From assembly GCF_003573545.1 (NCBI RefSeq), contig NZ_QWET01000027.1, forward strand, positions 1 to 55,087: a stretch of 55,087 nucleotides of DNA. The letters are read 5' to 3'. Both the position numbers and the translations under genes were made by a program. The notes beneath the pieces were generated by a model. It did no database searches and had not been told where the DNA came from. It saw only the letters and a program-made list of their open reading frames with translations. Source of the DNA: Mariniphaga sediminis. Lineage in GTDB: Bacteria > Bacteroidota > Bacteroidia > Bacteroidales > Prolixibacteraceae. Every line of letters starts with the position of its first letter. Position 1 is the first letter of the stretch. Shown piece by piece: positions 17,679 to 26,903 of the stretch.

Positions 17679-18584
17679 ATGAAGAAAATTGTTGTACTAC
17701 TGATAGCCTTATTTTCAGTAACCACCCTGTTTGCTCAGGAATTACGATGTAATGTTACCGTTTCGGCCCAACGAATACAAGGCGCCAACCGGCAGCTTTT
17801 CAGGACCATGCAGGCCGATATTTATGAGTTCATGAATAACCGGAAATGGACTGAGCATGTTTTTACATACGATGAAAAAATCAGGTGTAACATTCTTATT
17901 CGGCTCGACGATCAAATATCGACGGATGAATTCAGCGGTTCTATCCAGGTTCAGCTAATTCGGCCAGTGTTTAACTCCAGTTATGAAACCACCGTGCTGA
18001 ATCTTAAAGATAATGATTTTCGGTGCCGCTACGTGGAGTTTCAACCGCTTGAGTTTAATGAAACCTCGAACCGGGATAATCTGACCAACATCCTTGCCTA
18101 TTATGCCTACATTATTTTAGGGTTCGATTATGATACTTTTTCGCCGGAGGGCGGAACCCCTTATTTTGAAAAAGCGCAGGCGATTGCGAATAATTCGCAG
18201 AATGCCCGTGAAAAAGGCTGGAAGGCTTTTGAAAGTGAACGAAACCGTTACTGGCTTATCGAGAATATCCTGAATAAATCATATTCCGATTTTCGTAAAT
18301 GTATGTATTTTTATCACCGTCAGGGCCTTGATTTAATGTCTGATAAGCCGGAAGAGGGGAGGGCCAATGTTGCCCAGTCGCTTCGGGATATTCAGACGGT
18401 TTTCCGTCGCAGGCCGTCGGTATATATTCTTCAGGTATTTTTCGATGCCAAAGCCGATGAGATTGTCAATGTTTTTTCCAAATCTTTTCCCGATGAGCGG
18501 AACCGGGTGATGACCATTTTAAATGAGGTGGACCCATCAAACGGCAGCAAGTATGAAAAGATTGCTGAAAGCGAAGGGTTTTAA
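17679..18584 (+). CDS. porD: Type IX secretion protein PorD (DUF4835)
   Basis: This 301-residue protein matches the DUF4835/PorD family, needed for type IX secretion in Bacteroidota. It has a signal peptide (cleavage after LFA, residue ~19), the start ELRCNVTVSAQRIQG, the segment LAYYAYIILGFDYDTFSPEGG in the middle, and a C-terminal alpha-helical part with DIQTVFRRRPSVYILQVFFDAK. It sits 11 bp before recN, a pairing common in this phylum. An AAGGAGG ribosome-binding sequence lies before the start and is unusually good for this group. Confidence 0.88.
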   Translation: MKKIVVLLIALFSVTTLFAQELRCNVTVSAQRIQGANRQLFRTMQADIYEFMNNRKWTEHVFTYDEKIRCNILIRLDDQISTDEFSGSIQVQLIRPVFNSSYETTVLNLKDNDFRCRYVEFQPLEFNETSNRDNLTNILAYYAYIILGFDYDTFSPEGGTPYFEKAQAIANNSQNAREKGWKAFESERNRYWLIENILNKSYSDFRKCMYFYHRQGLDLMSDKPEEGRANVAQSLRDIQTVFRRRPSVYILQVFFDAKADEIVNVFSKSFPDERNRVMTILNEVDPSNGSKYEKIAESEGF

Positions 18585-18595
18585 CTCGTTCAGTA

Positions 18596-20251
18596 ATGTT
18601 GGTCAAACTAACTATTTCAAATTACGCGCTGATTAGTAAGCTGGATGTCGAGTTTCATACCGGATTAAATTCCGTAACAGGTGAAACAGGTGCCGGGAAA
18701 TCCATTATTTTAGGGGCACTTGGACTCATTTTGGGAAACAGGGCAGATCTGTCAGTACTAAAAAATCAAGACGAGAAGTGTATTGTTGAGGGCATTTTTG
18801 AAGTAGGAAATTACCATCTCCAATCTTTTTTTAAAAAGAATGACCTCGACTACGATAAGGTTGCCATTTTACGAAGGGAAATTACTCCATCGGGCAAATC
18901 ACGCGCTTTTGTGAATGACACCCCGGTAAACCTGAAAACACTCAGGGAACTGGGATTAAAATTGATTGACATTCATTCGCAGCACCAAAATCTGGAATTG
19001 GGGAACCGGAAGTTCCAGTTACATCTTGTGGATACCGTTGCGGGCACAGAAAAAGTTCTTAATGAATACCGCGAAAAGTACTCCCGTTTTATTACGCTAA
19101 AAAATGATCTGGAAAAATTAATAGAAAAAAGTGAAAAAGAACGGGCGGATCTGGACTACTGGCAGTTTCAGTTTAACCAGTTGGAGGAGGCCGGATTAAA
19201 AGAAGCTGAACCGGAAGAACTGGAAGCTGAACTGGAACAACTTACCCATGCAGAGGAGATTAAAAGCGCCTTTTCTGAGGTACAGCAACTGCTCGACGAT
19301 GAATCGTTTTCCGTTATTCAAAACCTGAAAGAGAGTGGGCGGAAACTGGAAAGCATCCAGGGATATGTTGCTGAAGTTCCGGGTTTGGCGGAGAGACTGC
19401 AAAGCAGCTTCCTGGAAATAAAAGATATTTTTGATGAGGTGGAAAGGCTGGCCGGAAAAGTAGAACATGATCCTGCCAGAATTGAACTGGTGAACGACCG
19501 CCTTAATTTACTTTACAGCCTTCAGCAAAAACATAATGTAGCAACAGCCGGAGAACTGATTGAATTGAAAAATTCATTTGATGAAAAAATCAACCAGGTT
19601 ACCGGCTACGACCAGGAAATAGAATCGTTAAAAACCGAATTTGAAAACAGCCGGTTGAGACTGGAAGAGAAGGCGGACGAACTAAGCCGGATTCGGAAAA
19701 AATCGTTTGAGCTGATTGAAAAAGCAGTCCGAAAAGACCTGCAGCAACTGGGAATGCCAAAGTCAAAACTGGAAGTAGTGCATGAGCCCTTGCCTGGATA
19801 TACTCCTGTTGGCAAAGATGCTGTTTCTTTCCTGTTCAGCTCGAATGCCGATATGCCGGCTGATGAGATTTCCAAAATTGCTTCCGGCGGAGAAATGTCC
19901 CGCTTAATGCTGGCCATTAAAAACCTGTTACGCACTTCCAAAGCATTACCTACCGTCATTTTTGATGAAATAGACACAGGCGTTTCGGGAGAGATTTCCC
20001 TGAAAATGGGAAACATATTAAAGGAATTTTCCATTTCTACACAAATCATAAATATTACCCACCTTCCGCAAATAGCCGCCAGGGGCAATGCCCATTTTAT
20101 GGTGTACAAGTATGAACAAAACGGTAAAACATATACTTCCATCAGGCAACTCAATGGAAAAGAACGGGTGGAAGAACTGGCCAAAATGGTTGGGGGTGAA
20201 AACCTGACTGATACAACATTAAAAGCTGCAGAAGAGCTGCTGAAGCAGTGA
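18596..20251 (+). CDS. recN: DNA repair protein RecN
   Basis: This 551-residue SMC-like ATPase acts in double-strand break repair. The Walker A motif GETGAGKS is near residue 32, after the usual LVKLTISNYALISKLDVEF start. A long coiled coil fills about residues 150-370. The ABC signature SGGEMSRLMLAIK and the Walker B/D-loop segment TVIFDEIDTGVSGE are in the C-terminal lobe. The length is normal for the family. Confidence 0.96.
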   Translation: MLVKLTISNYALISKLDVEFHTGLNSVTGETGAGKSIILGALGLILGNRADLSVLKNQDEKCIVEGIFEVGNYHLQSFFKKNDLDYDKVAILRREITPSGKSRAFVNDTPVNLKTLRELGLKLIDIHSQHQNLELGNRKFQLHLVDTVAGTEKVLNEYREKYSRFITLKNDLEKLIEKSEKERADLDYWQFQFNQLEEAGLKEAEPEELEAELEQLTHAEEIKSAFSEVQQLLDDESFSVIQNLKESGRKLESIQGYVAEVPGLAERLQSSFLEIKDIFDEVERLAGKVEHDPARIELVNDRLNLLYSLQQKHNVATAGELIELKNSFDEKINQVTGYDQEIESLKTEFENSRLRLEEKADELSRIRKKSFELIEKAVRKDLQQLGMPKSKLEVVHEPLPGYTPVGKDAVSFLFSSNADMPADEISKIASGGEMSRLMLAIKNLLRTSKALPTVIFDEIDTGVSGEISLKMGNILKEFSISTQIINITHLPQIAARGNAHFMVYKYEQNGKTYTSIRQLNGKERVEELAKMVGGENLTDTTLKAAEELLKQ

Positions 20252-20562
20252 TTCTTTTTCAATTAATTAATTTCCTGAATATTCAAAAAAAGACAGTCCC
20301 GTTGTCCTGTGCACGGGAGGTTGTTCTGAGCTATTGCCGTATGGTTGTAAAAGACGTGGTGGTTTCAAATTGAAATGGGAAACAAAAGGAGAGATTCATA
20401 AAATATAAGGGGAAAAGATATTTTTTTTGTGCGTATCTGTTTGATACATTGTTTTTTATTGTTGTCGATAAAAAGCAATGTGAAAAAAAATAACGATTCT
20501 GCTACGGAAGAAGTCTTTTCAAACGTATTCATAGTTGTAATCGAAAATGAATAAGTAAAGGA
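20252..20562. other. 311-bp gap between recN and the fecR/susC/susD locus
   Basis: No gene is seen. The left part has a weak hairpin (CCCGT...ACGGG, near 20298-20317) and a 13-bp odd palindrome TTTCAAATTGAAA at 20363-20375. The right part is AT-rich with poly-A/T runs and probably holds the fecR promoter. No sigma factor gene or remnant precedes fecR. Confidence 0.5.
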
Positions 20563-21525
20563 ATGAATAAAACATCCGAAAATCTGATCAATAAATTTAT
20601 TTCCGGGCAAAGGTTGTCGGATGAAGAATTTATTTTGTTTAACGATTTTTTGAACGACCTGCATTACCGGGATGAACTTATCCGGTTTCTGGAAAAAAAC
20701 TGGCAGCAAAGTCAGCCGGAAGAAGTAGCGTTACAGTTCGAACAGATACGGGAAAAAATCAGGGTTTCATCTTTGAAGGTGAAGATGAATCGATTGTTTA
20801 TAGCTTTGTCAAAGGCAGCAGCAATTTTATTTATACCACTTATTGCTGCTGTTCTTTATTTCTATTTCAACCAACCCATCTCCTCCGAGATGCTTACACT
20901 TTCTACAGAAAAAGGGGAATTTACCCATGTAATTCTTCCGGACGGATCGAGAGTATGGCTGAATGTAGATACAAAATTGAGCTATCCGGCCGATTATGGT
21001 TTAGGCTCCAGGAAACTTGAGTTGGAAGGGGAAGCCTATTTCGAAGTGAAAAAGGATGAAGAGTTGCCGTTTGAAGTGACATCAGGAAATCTGACTACCA
21101 CGGCATTGGGCACCCGGTTTGTCATTTCCGCATATCCGGAATCTTCTGTTATAAAATCGTCGCTGCTTGAGGGATCTGTGGAGATAAAATACGGCAATAC
21201 TTACAAAATAATAGAACCGGGCCAACAGTTGACACTCGATAAAAATAAACAAGCTTTGGTTTTGAAAGCTTTTAGTGAAGAGTATGAATTGTCGTGGAAG
21301 AATAACCAACTGGTATTTCGGTTGACACCGTTTGACCATGTTATTTCGATACTCGAAAAATGGTACGATATCAGTATTGTGTATAATCCGGAATTATTTA
21401 AATCAGAGACGCTTACAGTAAGGTTTGAAAAGTATGAATCATTGGAAAATGTACTCAAAGTTATTTCAAAGGTAAACGGATTCAATTATAAAGTTGAGGG
21501 TAATAATGTTAAAATAACAAAGTAA
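20563..21525 (+). CDS. FecR-family anti-sigma factor
   Basis: This 320-residue inner-membrane protein controls an ECF sigma factor in response to the TonB-dependent receptor. A short cytoplasmic helical domain (1-~80) precedes one membrane helix (about residues 86-104). The periplasmic FecR domain follows, with EKGEFTHVILPDGSRVWLN, LEGEAYFEV and TTALGTRFVI. A C-terminal DUF4974-type domain has LENVLKVISKVNGF. It lies 106 bp before susC, whose N-terminal STN domain is its expected partner. The matching ECF sigma gene is normally upstream but is absent here. Confidence 0.93.
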   Translation: MNKTSENLINKFISGQRLSDEEFILFNDFLNDLHYRDELIRFLEKNWQQSQPEEVALQFEQIREKIRVSSLKVKMNRLFIALSKAAAILFIPLIAAVLYFYFNQPISSEMLTLSTEKGEFTHVILPDGSRVWLNVDTKLSYPADYGLGSRKLELEGEAYFEVKKDEELPFEVTSGNLTTTALGTRFVISAYPESSVIKSSLLEGSVEIKYGNTYKIIEPGQQLTLDKNKQALVLKAFSEEYELSWKNNQLVFRLTPFDHVISILEKWYDISIVYNPELFKSETLTVRFEKYESLENVLKVISKVNGFNYKVEGNNVKITK

Positions 21526-21544: not shown

Positions 21545-21617
21545 TAAAAAAATCGGGCAAAGTCGCTGGAACCGACGATGCCCGACAGATCAAATTAAAT
21601 TAAGTATTTAACTTTAA
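21545..21617 (-). ncRNA. Predicted cis-antisense small RNA in the susC leader
   Basis: A minus-strand -7 box TAGATTTG (21632-21625) and a minus-strand hairpin terminator (21585-21546) bracket a segment of about 70 nt antisense to the susC leader. This layout resembles the cis-antisense RNAs described beside susC genes in Bacteroides fragilis (DonS type). No clear -33 TTTG was found at the expected distance, so transcription is inferred only. Confidence 0.4.
21546..21585 (-). terminator. Minus-strand intrinsic terminator in the susC leader
   Basis: TCGGGCA (21553-21559) pairs with TGCCCGA (21579-21585), with an inner GTCG/CGAC stem (21562-21565 with 21573-21576). On the plus strand no T-run follows. 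On the minus strand the stem is followed by seven Ts (the A-run 21546-21552). It therefore reads as a terminator for antisense transcription coming from the susC start. Confidence 0.6.
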
Positions 21618-21624
21618 AACGGTT

Positions 21625-21632
21625 CAAATCTA
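21625..21632 (-). promoter_or_regulatory. Minus-strand -7 box overlapping the susC start codon
   Basis: The plus strand reads CAAATCTA, which is TAGATTTG on the minus strand, a perfect match to TAnnTTTG. It covers the first base of the susC ATG. The matching upstream TTTG element is not obvious. Confidence 0.4.
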
Positions 21633-24600
21633 TGAAAAAAAGAAAACCATTCCTAACAGGGAATGAATTTTTCCTGTTACGAAAAATTTTAAGGATCATG
21701 AAACTAACGGCTATTTTTTTGTTGGTATCGACGATGTTGGTTTCTGCGAGTGTGTACTCACAGAGTACCCGGCTGACACTAAAATTTAAGGACATTTCTT
21801 ATGAAGAATTGTTCAAAGAGATTGAAAAACAAACCGAGTTCCGGTTTGCATTCTCCGATTCAAAACTTAATTCGCGGCAGAAAATCAGAATCGATGTCAC
21901 GAATGAAACGCTGGAAGAAATTCTGAACACAACACTTCCGGACGAGATTGCCTATGAAATCATCGACCGATATGTGGTCATCCTGAATGCTATTGAAAAA
22001 AGCCCGGTAATGAAAATTCTGCAACAGCAAGGAACTGTCTCCGGGAAAGTGACAGATTCTGATGAACTGCCCTTGCCGGGAGTTACTGTTGTGGTAAAAG
22101 GAACCACCCAGGGAACGGTAACAAATGCAGATGGAGAATACTTTTTAACAAATGTACCGGCGGAGGCTACATTGGTATTTTCATTTGTGGGTATGCGAAC
22201 TCAAGAAATATCTGTTGGAGCTCAAACAAACATCAATGTGGCGATGGAGGTGGATGCGATTGGCATTGAAGAAGTGGTTGCCGTAGGTTACGGTACACAA
22301 AAGAAAGCAAACCTGACAGGTGCCGTTGGGGTTGCCAATTCTGAACGACTGGAAAACAGAACGATTACATCTTTGGGCCAGGGGCTGCAGGGAGTAATTC
22401 CCGGGTTAAATATAACATATCAGTCCGGAGACCCCAATGAGGCCGCTAACTTTAATATCAGGGGATATGAATCGATTAATGGTGGCGATCCTCTTATTCT
22501 GGTTGATGGCGTTCCTATGGATGTGGAGAAAATCAACCCCAATGATATCAAGTCGGTATCCGTACTTAAAGATGCATCTTCAGCGGCTATTTACGGGGCA
22601 AGGGCTGCTTTTGGAGTTATACTGGTCGAAACGAAAACCGGGCAGGTTGGCAAAACCAATATTAACTTTTCAGTTCAAACAACTTTGCAAAAAGCCATTT
22701 TCCCGGGGTACGAACCGGTAAGAGACGGAGGTACTGCCAGGCAAATTCAGAACGAAGCCTATAAAATAACGAATGGAAGGACGTTGCTGCCCGACCCGGT
22801 AATTCAAGCCGCCCTGGCATATCAGGAAATGGAAAATCCAACTACTGATGATGCCTGGTTTTATTATGAGGGATTTCTTTATCCTTTGGAGAATACATAC
22901 ATGAAGGACTTGGCGATGAGGAATTTTGCTCCGCAGCAACAATATGATTTTAGTATCAACGGAGCCAGTGAAAAGGCCAGTTATTATGTTTCTTTGGGAG
23001 CCATTAATAAAGATGGATTCTTTCGGTATGGAAATGAAAGCTATAAAAGATACAATGTGTTATCTAAAATTGATTTTCAGGTAACCGATTGGTTTAAACT
23101 GGAAGAAAGGATTTCATTTTCTTCTGTATTAAATGATAATCCGCATGATTATCATGACCAGTGGTACTACCAGTCCATAGCAAAACATTTTTATTCTCCT
23201 CATACTTTTCCTGACCTGACTTACTACGTGGAGCCGGGTGACCATGACCAATGGGCGCCATATATCGGAATGCACCTGGATAACAGAAATCCGCTGCCGT
23301 ACCTAAAGAATGGAGGCCGAAATACTACTACTGAAAATGACATCTGGCTAACACAGGGGGTTACAATTACTCCGATTAAAGGATTAAAAATCAGAGGGGA
23401 TTTTTCTTATAGATATTACTGGCAGGACATGGAGAGAGTCAGGTCACAGGTTGATGTGTTAAGAGGTTTTAACGGTTTCGAAATGACGGAAGATATTGTT
23501 TATAAGGGACAAAGTGCCAACGACTGGATAGAAAGTCGATTTGATAAAAATACCTATTATGTATTTAATACCTATGCAGAGTATGTAAGAAATGATATTG
23601 GCGACCATTATATAAAAGGATTGATAGGGTTTAATGAAGAATATGGGGCAACACACAGGGTGACAACGAGATCTACCCAGCTGATTACACCAATCATTCA
23701 TTCATTAACTGCTACAACCGGTGTAAAGTCTAATTCGGATGCCAAGAATGAAATCATGCTCCGGGGGATGTTCTACCGTTTAAATTATTCTTATAAAGAT
23801 AAATATCTTTTTGAGTCAAATGGCCGGTATGATGGAACCTCCCGGTTTCCCCAAAAGGATCGTTTCGGATTTTTCCCATCATTTTCTTTGGGATGGAGAT
23901 TATCGGAAGAAGCATTTATGGAGGGGGCAAGTGTGTGGCTGGATAATTTAAAAATCAGGGCATCTTATGGCGAGCTTGGGAACCAGAGTGTGGGGGCCTA
24001 TTATCCTTATATCTCTACCATGGCATCGGGAACTTCCACATTTTTACTCGACGGAGGCGGAAATCTTACTAATATAATATCCCCGGGAGGGTTAGTTAGT
24101 AATTCTCTAACCTGGGAAACAGTTGAAAGTAAGAATGTTGGTATTGATTTTACCATAAAAAGAAAACTGGATGTATCATTGGATTACTTTATCCGGGATA
24201 CCAAGAATATGCTGATGGAAAAAAGTTATCCCGATCCTCTTGGGGCAGAGGCTCCCAGTGAAAATGCTGCTGATTTAAGAAATACCGGATGGGAACTGGC
24301 AGTAACCTGGCATGATAAGGTAAGTAATGACTGGTCATACAATGTAAATCTTTCACTGTCTGATTACCAAACGGAAATAACAAAGTACGACAATCCAACC
24401 GGCGACATAGGCGACTATTATGTGGGTAAAAAAATAGGTGAGATTTGGGGATATAAGACAGTGGGCTTGTTTCAAACAGAAGAAGAACTGGCCAATGCAG
24501 CAGATCAGTCAAGGTTAGGTTCTAACTGGAGATTGGGTGATGTACATTATGCGAATCTTGATGATGATGATGAGATTACAACAGGGTCTAATACATTGGA

Positions 24601-25108
24601 TGATACCGGTGACAGAATAAGGATAGGAAACTCTACGCCACGATATGCATTTGGTATCAACCCGAGTATCAAATATAAAAATTTCTCTCTCGATATTTTT
24701 GCTCAGGGGGTATTAAAAAGGGACTGGTACCCGTCAAGAGGAAATTTTTTACGGTTCTGGCCTTTTAAATCATTGTCGATGGAGCAATGGTGGCTCGATG
24801 ATACCTGGTCGCCAGAAAATACCGATGCCTATTTCCCGGGTAAACAATTTGCATATTCCGATAATAAAAATACGCACGTACAGACCCGTTATTTGCAGAA
24901 TGCGGCATATATAAGGTTGAAAAATATAACTTTAAGTTATAACATTCCTGTAAAGTTTGTTGCCAATGCCCAGGTTTATCTTAACGGTACAAATCTTTGG
25001 GAAGCCACAGGAATGTATAAAACCCTGGATCCGGAATACTCTACTGATCTGGTGCCAAGATACATGTTTCAACGGTCGTTTACACTTGGCCTGAAAGTTA
25101 CACTATAA
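21632..25108 (+). CDS. susC: SusC/RagA-type TonB-dependent glycan importer with STN domain
   Basis: This 1158-residue outer-membrane transporter imports oligosaccharides with its SusD partner. A leader with a hydrophobic stretch at about 25-40 is followed by an STN (secretin/TonB N-terminal) signalling domain (about 48-115), a carboxypeptidase-regulatory-like domain (about 130-205), the plug (about 215-330, with SVLKDASSAAIYGARAAFGVI) and a beta-barrel ending in an aromatic-rich strand. The STN domain indicates signalling to a FecR protein, and one is encoded just upstream. The start at 21632 gives an extended N-terminus; the internal ATG at 21698 (MKLTAIFLL) is an alternative. Confidence 0.96.
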   Translation: MKKRKPFLTGNEFFLLRKILRIMKLTAIFLLVSTMLVSASVYSQSTRLTLKFKDISYEELFKEIEKQTEFRFAFSDSKLNSRQKIRIDVTNETLEEILNTTLPDEIAYEIIDRYVVILNAIEKSPVMKILQQQGTVSGKVTDSDELPLPGVTVVVKGTTQGTVTNADGEYFLTNVPAEATLVFSFVGMRTQEISVGAQTNINVAMEVDAIGIEEVVAVGYGTQKKANLTGAVGVANSERLENRTITSLGQGLQGVIPGLNITYQSGDPNEAANFNIRGYESINGGDPLILVDGVPMDVEKINPNDIKSVSVLKDASSAAIYGARAAFGVILVETKTGQVGKTNINFSVQTTLQKAIFPGYEPVRDGGTARQIQNEAYKITNGRTLLPDPVIQAALAYQEMENPTTDDAWFYYEGFLYPLENTYMKDLAMRNFAPQQQYDFSINGASEKASYYVSLGAINKDGFFRYGNESYKRYNVLSKIDFQVTDWFKLEERISFSSVLNDNPHDYHDQWYYQSIAKHFYSPHTFPDLTYYVEPGDHDQWAPYIGMHLDNRNPLPYLKNGGRNTTTENDIWLTQGVTITPIKGLKIRGDFSYRYYWQDMERVRSQVDVLRGFNGFEMTEDIVYKGQSANDWIESRFDKNTYYVFNTYAEYVRNDIGDHYIKGLIGFNEEYGATHRVTTRSTQLITPIIHSLTATTGVKSNSDAKNEIMLRGMFYRLNYSYKDKYLFESNGRYDGTSRFPQKDRFGFFPSFSLGWRLSEEAFMEGASVWLDNLKIRASYGELGNQSVGAYYPYISTMASGTSTFLLDGGGNLTNIISPGGLVSNSLTWETVESKNVGIDFTIKRKLDVSLDYFIRDTKNMLMEKSYPDPLGAEAPSENAADLRNTGWELAVTWHDKVSNDWSYNVNLSLSDYQTEITKYDNPTGDIGDYYVGKKIGEIWGYKTVGLFQTEEELANAADQSRLGSNWRLGDVHYANLDDDDEITTGSNTLDDTGDRIRIGNSTPRYAFGINPSIKYKNFSLDIFAQGVLKRDWYPSRGNFLRFWPFKSLSMEQWWLDDTWSPENTDAYFPGKQFAYSDNKNTHVQTRYLQNAAYIRLKNITLSYNIPVKFVANAQVYLNGTNLWEATGMYKTLDPEYSTDLVPRYMFQRSFTLGLKVTL

Positions 25109-25130: not shown

Positions 25131-26903
25131 ATGAGAAATAAAATATTATATTTTTTAATTTTTGCAGCTTTCCTGATTAGTTGCAACGATGATTCTATGA
25201 ATAGGTATCCCTTGACCAGCATATCTGGCGAAACATTCTGGAATACTGAAAATGACCTTATGGTTTACAATAATGTATTTTATAATTATGCCAAGTCGAA
25301 TGCCATGCGGTTATTAAATGGCAACCATGAAGGCGCAACCAGGGACGGGCAATATTCATTAGACGGAATGACTGACAATGATGTCCGGGCTTTATCTTAC
25401 AATGGAAACCACGTAAGAATTAGGGCCGGGCAAATAACACCCGACAATAATCCAATTTCATTTGGCTGGAATAGAACATGTTTTTATTTTGTGCGTGCCA
25501 TTAATATTGGCCTGGCTAATTATGATAAGGCGGATATCAGTCAGTCAATTATTGATCAATATAAGGCGGAAGCGCGTTTGTTCCGTGGGTGGATGGTTGC
25601 TGACAAAGTTTCTCTTTATGGTGACTATCCCTGGATAGACAAAGAATTGAATATCGATTCTGACGAATTATTTGCGGAGCGTACGCCCCGTGAAACGGTA
25701 ATGGAAAAAGTACTTGCTGATTTGGATTATGCATGCGAATATTTACCTGACGATTGGGGCGACGGCAGTGCTCCGGGAAGACTGAATCGTTGGAGTGCTT
25801 TGCTGATAAAATCGCGTGTTTGTCTGTTCGAGGGAACATGGAGAAAATACCACGGAGGTACAAATCCTGACTCATGGTTACAGGCTGCAGCTACCGCTGC
25901 AAAAGAATTAATAGACAACGGCCCGTATCAACTGTATTCTACCGGCGATCCGGCGCATGATTACAACGCCATATTTCAAATGACAGATCTTACCGGAGTG
26001 GATGAGGTCATGTACTGGAGAAGATACGAGCAGGGTATCGTACAAAATTCATGGCAAATATATTACTACATGTCTACCGCAACAAAAAGTATGGTAGAAG
26101 ATTATTTGTGTACCGACGGATTACCCATCACACTTTCAGATTTATATCAGGGCGATGAGGTTTTTGAGAACTTGTTTGAAAACAGGGATCCCCGTTTAAA
26201 GCAAACTATTTTGCACCCGGATGATGTTGAATATTATGATTACGGCGGGTTAACAGCTATTGGAACTACGATTCCCAATCCGACCGGAAAAACAGGTTCG
26301 TGGACATCGGTAACCGGCTATCACCAGGTGAAGCATGTTAATCAGCCACAAAACGTGTATTTCCATGATGGGTTTACCCCGTGTGTTATATTGCGATTTG
26401 GTGAAGCATTGCTCAACTATGCCGAGGCCAAAGCAGAATTGGGAACATTGTCTCAGACCGACCTGGACATAAGTATAAATCAACTGAGGGATCGGGTTGG
26501 AATGGTTCATATGGATATTAATAACATTCCGGTTGATCCAAGATATACCGATTGGGGTGTTTCTCCATTGATTGTTGAGATTCGGCGGGAGAGAAGGATT
26601 GAATTATTTGGCGAAGGTTTCCGCTTTGATGATATTAGGAGATGGAAACTGGGTGAAAAATTAATGACTAAAAAAGATTATGGCATTCGCTGGGATGAAG
26701 CAAACAGGAACAGCATCGATCCTGCCGGTGCCGTCTCCCTACAGTATGAAGTTGTTCCCGGGACCGGAATTGAATATATCTGCCCTAATAAAGGAAGTGA
26801 CTTTGAAAATCCGGTATTTGAGAGCAAACACTATTTGTGGCCTATTCCGGTAAGCGCCAGGTCTCAAAATCCTACGTTGGGACAAAACCCCGGCTGGGAA
26901 TAA
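25131..26903 (+). CDS. susD: SusD/RagB-type surface glycan-binding lipoprotein
   Basis: This 590-residue lipoprotein forms the lid of the SusCD importer. The lipobox is LISC (Cys18), followed by the usual PLTSISGETFWNTENDL start with the aromatic-rich helix. TPR-like helical segments and the C-terminal RagB signature (LRFGEALLNYAEAKAELG, IRRERRIELFGEGFRFDDIRRW) are present. It follows susC by 22 bp and is closed by a long hairpin terminator, suggesting that susCD can be transcribed at a higher level than the enzymes downstream. Confidence 0.96.
   Translation: MRNKILYFLIFAAFLISCNDDSMNRYPLTSISGETFWNTENDLMVYNNVFYNYAKSNAMRLLNGNHEGATRDGQYSLDGMTDNDVRALSYNGNHVRIRAGQITPDNNPISFGWNRTCFYFVRAINIGLANYDKADISQSIIDQYKAEARLFRGWMVADKVSLYGDYPWIDKELNIDSDELFAERTPRETVMEKVLADLDYACEYLPDDWGDGSAPGRLNRWSALLIKSRVCLFEGTWRKYHGGTNPDSWLQAAATAAKELIDNGPYQLYSTGDPAHDYNAIFQMTDLTGVDEVMYWRRYEQGIVQNSWQIYYYMSTATKSMVEDYLCTDGLPITLSDLYQGDEVFENLFENRDPRLKQTILHPDDVEYYDYGGLTAIGTTIPNPTGKTGSWTSVTGYHQVKHVNQPQNVYFHDGFTPCVILRFGEALLNYAEAKAELGTLSQTDLDISINQLRDRVGMVHMDINNIPVDPRYTDWGVSPLIVEIRRERRIELFGEGFRFDDIRRWKLGEKLMTKKDYGIRWDEANRNSIDPAGAVSLQYEVVPGTGIEYICPNKGSDFENPVFESKHYLWPIPVSARSQNPTLGQNPGWE

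Follow-up and report, generated by a model that had tools for sequence, protein, structure and literature searches.

A Predicted Antisense RNA Unit at the Start of FecR-Associated susC Genes in Mariniphaga sediminis

Predicted Antisense Unit at the susC Start of the Window

The susC gene analyzed here very probably has a small antisense RNA at its start that acts as a check on susC, as judged from sequence and comparison. It lies in a 55,087-nt stretch of Mariniphaga sediminis DNA (contig NZ_QWET01000027.1), which as a whole is called the window hereafter. On the minus strand, a −7 promoter box over the susC start codon and a hairpin followed by a T tract bound the predicted RNA, which would run leftward through the susC leader (Table 1). 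This arrangement of hairpin and box is beyond chance, as established by its counts in the susC leaders of the same genome and at ordinary gene starts, by the covariation of the stem, and by the match of a covariance model to the window.

Table 1. Features around the susC start of the window, with positions counted on the forward strand.
Feature	Positions	Strand	Basis
fecR, anti-sigma/transducer protein	20563–21525	+	FecR and FecR_C domains (Pfam)
Predicted cis-antisense RNA, ~70–75 nt; 5′ end ~21618–21620, 3′ end within T run	21546–21618	−	Folding and covariance model R1
T7 tail of the intrinsic terminator	21546–21552	−	Sequence (A7 on the plus strand)
Terminator hairpin: outer 8 bp (G-U at base) and inner 4 bp separated by an internal loop, apical loop of 7	21552–21586	−	Folding, covariation, strand preference
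−7 promoter box TAGATTTG (TAnnTTTG), lying across the susC start codon	21625–21632	−	Sequence, own-genome comparison
susC, TonB-dependent transporter with N-terminal STN-type region	21632–25108	+	CarbopepD_reg_2 and Plug (Pfam)
Second hairpin, AACAGGGAA-TGAATT-TTTCCTGTT, centre ~+36, inside the susC coding start	21655–21678	+	Folding, z −4.0 at the window locus
susD	25131–26903	+	SusD_RagB (Pfam)

Inspection of the plus strand located the outer stem of the terminator in TCGGGCA (21553–21559), which pairs with TGCCCGA (21579–21585), and the inner helix in GTCG/CGAC (21562–21565/21573–21576), which closes the loop at 21566–21572. No T run follows the hairpin 3′ on the plus strand, and the T7 exists for the minus reading only. 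An earlier note on this DNA, made from its letters, had described a minus-only hairpin with a T7 tail and a minus-strand −7 box over the susC ATG; both were found, at 21586–21546 and 21632–21625, respectively, with TAGATTTG having the A of the ATG in common with susC. The minus-strand 73-mer 21618–21546 folded at −23.9 kcal/mol (z −5.1), a value equalled by none of 200 shuffles, and the terminator hairpin alone at −20.2 kcal/mol (z −4.7). When the start is taken at −14, the predicted RNA of this locus is 71 nt long. The hairpin was missed by a simple sigma-70/terminator pattern scan of the window, which its internal loop probably explains; verification was therefore based on folding and comparison. 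The window locus is among the less typical members of the family in having this internal loop and an apical loop, GTTCCAG, that lacks the GTTnnnGC motif. It also has no −33 TTTG at proper spacing.

The STN-type call for the SusC of the window was made by alignment with paralogues, as the Pfam STN model was not reached at 1e-3. In the upstream region (17679–21525), fecR is preceded by a DUF4835 gene and a RecN/SMC-like gene. The earlier note had counted a sigma factor among the controls of this polysaccharide utilization locus (PUL), but the analysis did not support this: a Pfam scan of 20 window ORFs, 4 of which gave no match of any kind, turned up no ECF sigma gene next to fecR or elsewhere among them. 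The sigma partner of FecR is either encoded elsewhere or was missed.

Conservation and Strand Preference in susC Leaders

The SusC of the window was used to search its own genome and a relatives set of 60 genomes (own included), and 99 leaders were examined, namely 70 from the own genome, which are part of its susC set, and 29 from relatives. Two own STN matches (C1:69195 and C12:5073) are outside the counts. A locus was classed as STN-type when its match to the window's SusC extended into the N-terminal STN-type region. Of the 67 own STN-type loci, 64 carried a terminator on the minus strand (all except L088, L090, and L095) and 5 on the plus strand; the minus −7 box was complete in 51 and present at four or more of five positions in 66, and FecR was upstream in 66. 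The 3 own susC loci without the STN-type part exhibited no minus terminator, no full box, and no FecR, with a plus terminator in 2 and a four-of-five box in 1. A similar picture was obtained for the relatives, where the 23 STN-type loci gave 17 minus terminators, no plus terminator, 14 full boxes, 20 boxes at four or more positions, and FecR upstream in 21, and the 6 loci without the STN-type part gave none, 1, none, 1, and none for the same items. Ordinary gene starts (n = 216, from 400 kb of the same genome) had the full box once and the four-of-five box 10 times, a minus terminator 11 times, a plus terminator 19 times, and a minus terminator together with a four-of-five box once. Conservation of the leader hairpin in related susC genes, which the earlier note had proposed as a check, was hence observed in position, strand, and structure (64/67 own and 17/23 relatives), and the −7 box is likewise conserved at four or more positions (66/67 and 20/23).

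Both members of the duplicate pairs L014/L015 and L022/L023 were kept in the 67-locus count, and one of each was removed from later tallies; the start of L021 was mispicked in that count and is the right one in the position tallies. The paired genes lie on contigs C4 and C12 and have identical leaders, and a third pair (C4:15231 and C12:5436) is alike in model score only. These pairs represent either a duplicated genome region or an assembly artefact.

In every one of the 65 deduplicated own leaders, positions −6 to −4 read AAA and position −1 is T; position −7 is either C (75%) or T (25%). Read on the minus strand, this start context is TAnnTTTG, or the same with A as its final base, and TAnnTTTG is the −7 consensus given for sigma-ABfr in PMC7366714. 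The counts for the −33 element, and those for duplexes, loop motifs, and YUNR loops given below, refer to the 62 of 65 own loci with a detected hairpin. A conserved −33 element was not found in these leaders, as one of 62 had it and 1.0 was expected from shuffles. The same paper reports that RNA-seq of Flavobacterium johnsoniae confirmed the −7 element and not the −33 element. The earlier note had named the missing −33 element as its weak point; the element is indeed absent, but this is a weak objection because the absence is family-wide.

Which reading the stems favor was examined at 88 loci with a stem search that was symmetrical for both strands. The minus reading contained 175 G-U pairs and the plus reading 44, and the minus fold was the stabler one in 77 of 88 loci, with means of −16.6 (minus) and −13.1 kcal/mol (plus). 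Some of these stems extended into the A-rich flank or did not correspond to the terminator, and 13 of the 88 were set aside in a restricted count. Within the remaining 75 terminator stems, the inner 8 pairs included 86 G-U pairs on minus and 17 on plus (59 and 8 without the closing pair), and the minus fold was stabler in 67. The G-U pairs and the stability thus favor the minus strand. In the 20-sequence alignment, 92.5% of the cells of the 12-pair helix were paired, and 9 of the 12 pairs had changed on both sides (55 such cells). The covariation score was 0.653 as compared with 0.259 when shuffled (0/500), and fell to 0.211 or less when the partner column was slid by 1 to 3.

These data bear on the alternative that the hairpin is an element of the sense susC leader, such as an mRNA structure or a protein-binding site, that CAAAnnTATG is a translation signal, and that there is no antisense RNA. 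The palindrome does fold on the plus strand as well, and the box flanks a start codon. However, the G-U pairs and stability lean toward minus, the T tract is on minus only, and C/T at −7 and T at −1 differ from the ordinary start context. In addition, one Bacteroides finegoldii locus (L260/L294) keeps the box and the hairpin though its SusC-like frame begins at the next Met. We consider this alternative highly improbable.

A motif around GCCTATGA ([GC]C[CT][TA]ATG[ATG]) was also noticed in 30 of 65 own leaders (e.g., L019 and L071), for which about 2 are expected by chance. In 28 of these leaders, its distance upstream of the antisense terminator is 14–59 nt; the leader of the window lacks the motif. 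By eye, it often contains a start codon and, a few codons on, a stop; it may be a promoter element for the sense strand or a tiny ORF.

Covariance Model, Distribution, and a Hairpin in the Coding Start

A covariance model, R1, was built from 20 sequences (19 from this genome and 1 from a relative), leaving the window locus out of the training. Its sole match in the window at E ≤ 1 was 21634–21545 on the minus strand (36.1 bits, E 5.8e-4). A genome-wide scan, in which 150 of 7003 first-look candidates were scored, gave at least 59 matches at E ≤ 10. Among the matches listed, all 41 at E ≤ 0.05 end antisense at a susC ATG, and 22 of them are outside the training set. Copies acting in trans from elsewhere in the genome were also considered and rejected, as these 41 listed matches all sit at susC starts. 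The window locus is absent among the genome-wide matches listed and was found when the window was scanned alone. Of the 18 weaker matches among the 59 listed, 9 are at examined susC starts; the other 9, including C7:88045, C3:44291, and C3:81503, are not. The first of these (L120, C7:88045–88141, plus strand, E 0.107) ends at the ATG of a non-SusC ORF beginning MSYSDDFEQW, and its leader has a hairpin; it is perhaps an antisense RNA on another type of gene, or perhaps a chance match.

At the gathering score, Rfam 15 identified one tRNA only in the window, and the antisense locus was unmatched. On 20 of the 99 leader loci, it gave three matches (E up to 1), all under the gathering score and from other families. 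This touches a further explanation, in which the start-codon box is conserved not as a promoter but as the binding site for a trans-acting FopS-type sRNA. Such sRNAs of B. thetaiotaomicron bind near susC start codons, according to PMC11697453. The Rfam result speaks against this explanation, although the Rfam copy used may lack a FopS model, and the minus terminator that accompanies the box would be left unexplained. We therefore regard it as most improbable.

Within the relatives set, R1 matched at 0.01 in 36 of 60 genomes (own included). Over 36 family genomes, the 302 R1 matches tracked the 658 STN matches with a Spearman coefficient of 0.97, a value that is uncorrected for kinship and to which genome size and strict filters may contribute. 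In B. fragilis Q1F2, there were 9 R1 matches at E ≤ 1 and 28 STN matches; by eye, 7 of 8 fetched R1 matches run up to the ATG of a SusC-type ORF and 1 lies elsewhere, and 6 of those 7 loci adjoin a Pfam STN match. B. salyersiae, B. finegoldii, B. stercorirosoris, and B. timonensis together gave 15 matches at E ≤ 1, of which 8 run up to the ATG of an STN-SusC-like ORF. Among the others, L260 has the box ATG with a SusC-like frame from the next Met, L264 is at a SusC-like ORF with neither STN nor box, L244 has a box ATG whose frame is closed after 5 codons, with no long frame following, and 4 (L255, L261, L265, and L266) lie elsewhere. The counts exclude the Bacteroides starts that had been chosen by distance, which frequently fell on a wrong Met (box in 2 of 26). 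At the B. finegoldii locus L260/L294, a stop follows 5 codons after the box ATG and an STN-SusC-like frame opens at the next Met, with the box and the antisense hairpin retained. Phocaeicola coprocola had no R1 match, and none of the 7 matches in Chryseobacterium, Bergeyella, Elizabethkingia, and two Clostridium (E 0.009–0.97), every one of which was fetched, was at a SusC-like start; L262, of this non-Bacteroides set, ends early at its contig edge. In a sample of the phylum, R1 matched at 0.001 in 13 of 247 genomes (own included), and 16 of 17 non-own matches end by eye at the ATG of an STN-SusC-like ORF, L313 being the exception.

The second hairpin of Table 1, on the sense strand, is also a family feature. 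In own STN-type susC genes, the region +12 to +60 had a mean z of −2.08 (n = 65), and the next two windows had 0.01 and −0.33; relatives with STN gave −2.05 (n = 23). The signal was weaker in Bacteroides (−0.91, n = 15, next window −0.62) and at the phylum loci (−1.40, n = 16), and it was absent from susC genes without STN (−0.14, n = 9). The coding stems have their median centre at +34 and contain 124 G-U pairs in the sense and 50 in the antisense reading (own loci). Across the STN-type susC genes of the genome, this hairpin, located within the first 50 nt of the coding region, is kept in position and not in sequence. As a bare inverted-repeat score, its excess is modest (15.8 versus 13.8 shuffled). 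Between the two hairpins, from −40 to +15, the sequence shows no structure (z 0.18 and 0.03). As a guess, the coding hairpin might have a role in translation initiation.

Proposed Action and Comparison with Known Systems

The explanation that we consider probable is that the locus encodes a cis-antisense RNA of the DonS kind, ~70–75 nt in length, that represses susC; its transcription, its pairing in the cell, the repression, and the threshold described below are inferred from sequence. A housekeeping-type promoter with its −7 box over the susC start codon would fire leftward across the susC leader, and transcription would end at the hairpin-T7 terminator near 21546. The resulting RNA would be perfectly complementary to the susC 5′ leader from about −14 to −86. 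It would lower SusC production, most likely through pairing with the leader that blocks translation initiation or makes the mRNA prone to decay; colliding transcription may add to the effect. In this view, FecR-gated susC mRNA would have to outpace the antisense RNA, which would place a threshold or lock on FecR-associated transporters. The cognate duplex was the best one for 62 of 62 own RNAs, with a gap to the next leader of at least 47.9 kcal/mol, so that by full pairing each RNA would be specific to its own locus. In B. thetaiotaomicron, ten further RNAs in DonS-like orientation were detected, five of them confirmed by Northern blotting and some anti-correlated with susC (PMC7366714). An atlas (PMC10994844) shows PUL antisense RNAs that correlate with susC as well as ones that anti-correlate with it, and repression is hence perhaps not universal.

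The main rival is transcription interference, in which the leftward polymerase collides with or occludes sense transcription, the RNA is a by-product, and the terminator shields fecR. The box and the terminator are the most conserved parts, the leader is short, and the geometry is head-on, all of which speaks for it. On the other hand, the terminator stem covaries, and the loop motif [CU]GUU-N3/4-GC[AG] was found in 21 of 62 family terminators against 1 of 137 ordinary ones, both of which point to a role for the RNA itself; a further mid-leader hairpin was also seen by eye, uncounted, in several leaders. We favor RNA–RNA pairing with repression of SusC synthesis and regard interference as unlikely. 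As interference is allowed as a helper within the favored explanation, the two overlap and the odds we assign total slightly more than one.

A broader proposal is put forward tentatively, with more doubt than confidence. FecR-associated SusC across Bacteroidota might be under an almost obligatory two-part RNA lock, composed of a cis-antisense RNA at the start codon and a sense hairpin at about +34. In that case, the N-terminal extension of ~20 residues would exist for RNA signals and not for the protein, and antisense RNAs of different loci might communicate through the apical loop they share.

This kind of RNA is already known from the DonS-like RNAs of gut Bacteroides, and the window locus is a further member. 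Here, the unit is present before nearly all examined STN-type susC genes of the genome, and the analysis adds the tight coupling to FecR-associated SusC, the enriched apical loop, and the second, sense hairpin in the coding start. No printed statement of a near-universal presence on STN-type susC was found in the literature searched, which was thin in subscription journals. If the RNA works as proposed, nearly every examined FecR-associated SusC here would have a second, RNA-level gate in its start codon, and antisense RNA would govern nutrient choice in such Bacteroidota generally rather than in individual cases. The proposal would account for a promoter box frozen within the start-codon context, and the work yields a covariance model and B. 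fragilis loci that are usable for testing.

Among known systems, plasmid copy-control antisense RNA offers a likeness in the loop. The UUGGCG loop is known from such RNA, as a reference title in PMC10724649 indicates, and this hexaloop of the ColIb-P9 Inc RNA is also on the antisense strand of the own loci L028 and L077; UUGGCG further recurs in the antisense region at 5 of the 16 phylum loci from other genomes. YUNR loops serve antisense pairing in general, according to PMC4485353. A YUNR U-turn was discarded as a general rule here, as the excess was only modest: either loop had one in 27 of 62 loci (18.9 shuffled), the antisense loop in 18 (12.8 shuffled), and the sense loop in 13 (10.0 shuffled). 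The window locus differs from YUNR systems in having it (CUGG) in the sense loop only.

FopS of B. thetaiotaomicron has RNA control around susC-like start codons in common with the present locus (PMC11697453). FopS RNAs, which are multicopy sRNAs with a conserved 5′ seed, act in trans on several targets, whereas complementarity here is full and in cis, and the 41 strong matches listed are all at susC starts. The boundary is blurred, since 4 of 14 FopS were classed as antisense RNAs in the same paper.

The closest likeness is to DonS and the DonS-like RNAs of B. fragilis and B. thetaiotaomicron. The likening to B. fragilis antisense RNAs in the earlier note was right, as R1 matches B. fragilis susC starts; it relies on homology to those loci and not on the sequence of DonS itself. 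The unit is more pervasive in M. sediminis, where nearly every examined STN-type susC has one, than in B. fragilis Q1F2 with its 9 R1 against 28 STN matches. DonS-like RNAs are 78–128 nt long as cited in PMC7366714, and the ~71–75 nt predicted for the window locus, with both ends predicted, is just below this range; the predicted lengths for the family, taking the start at −14, have a median of 76 and a range of 53–112. They have their own promoter and terminator, and the present unit has the −7 box and the terminator but not the −33 element. Like DonS, which is a short RNA divergent to the susC homologue of a PUL, the predicted RNA of the window is divergent to susC and antisense to its 5′ leader and start.
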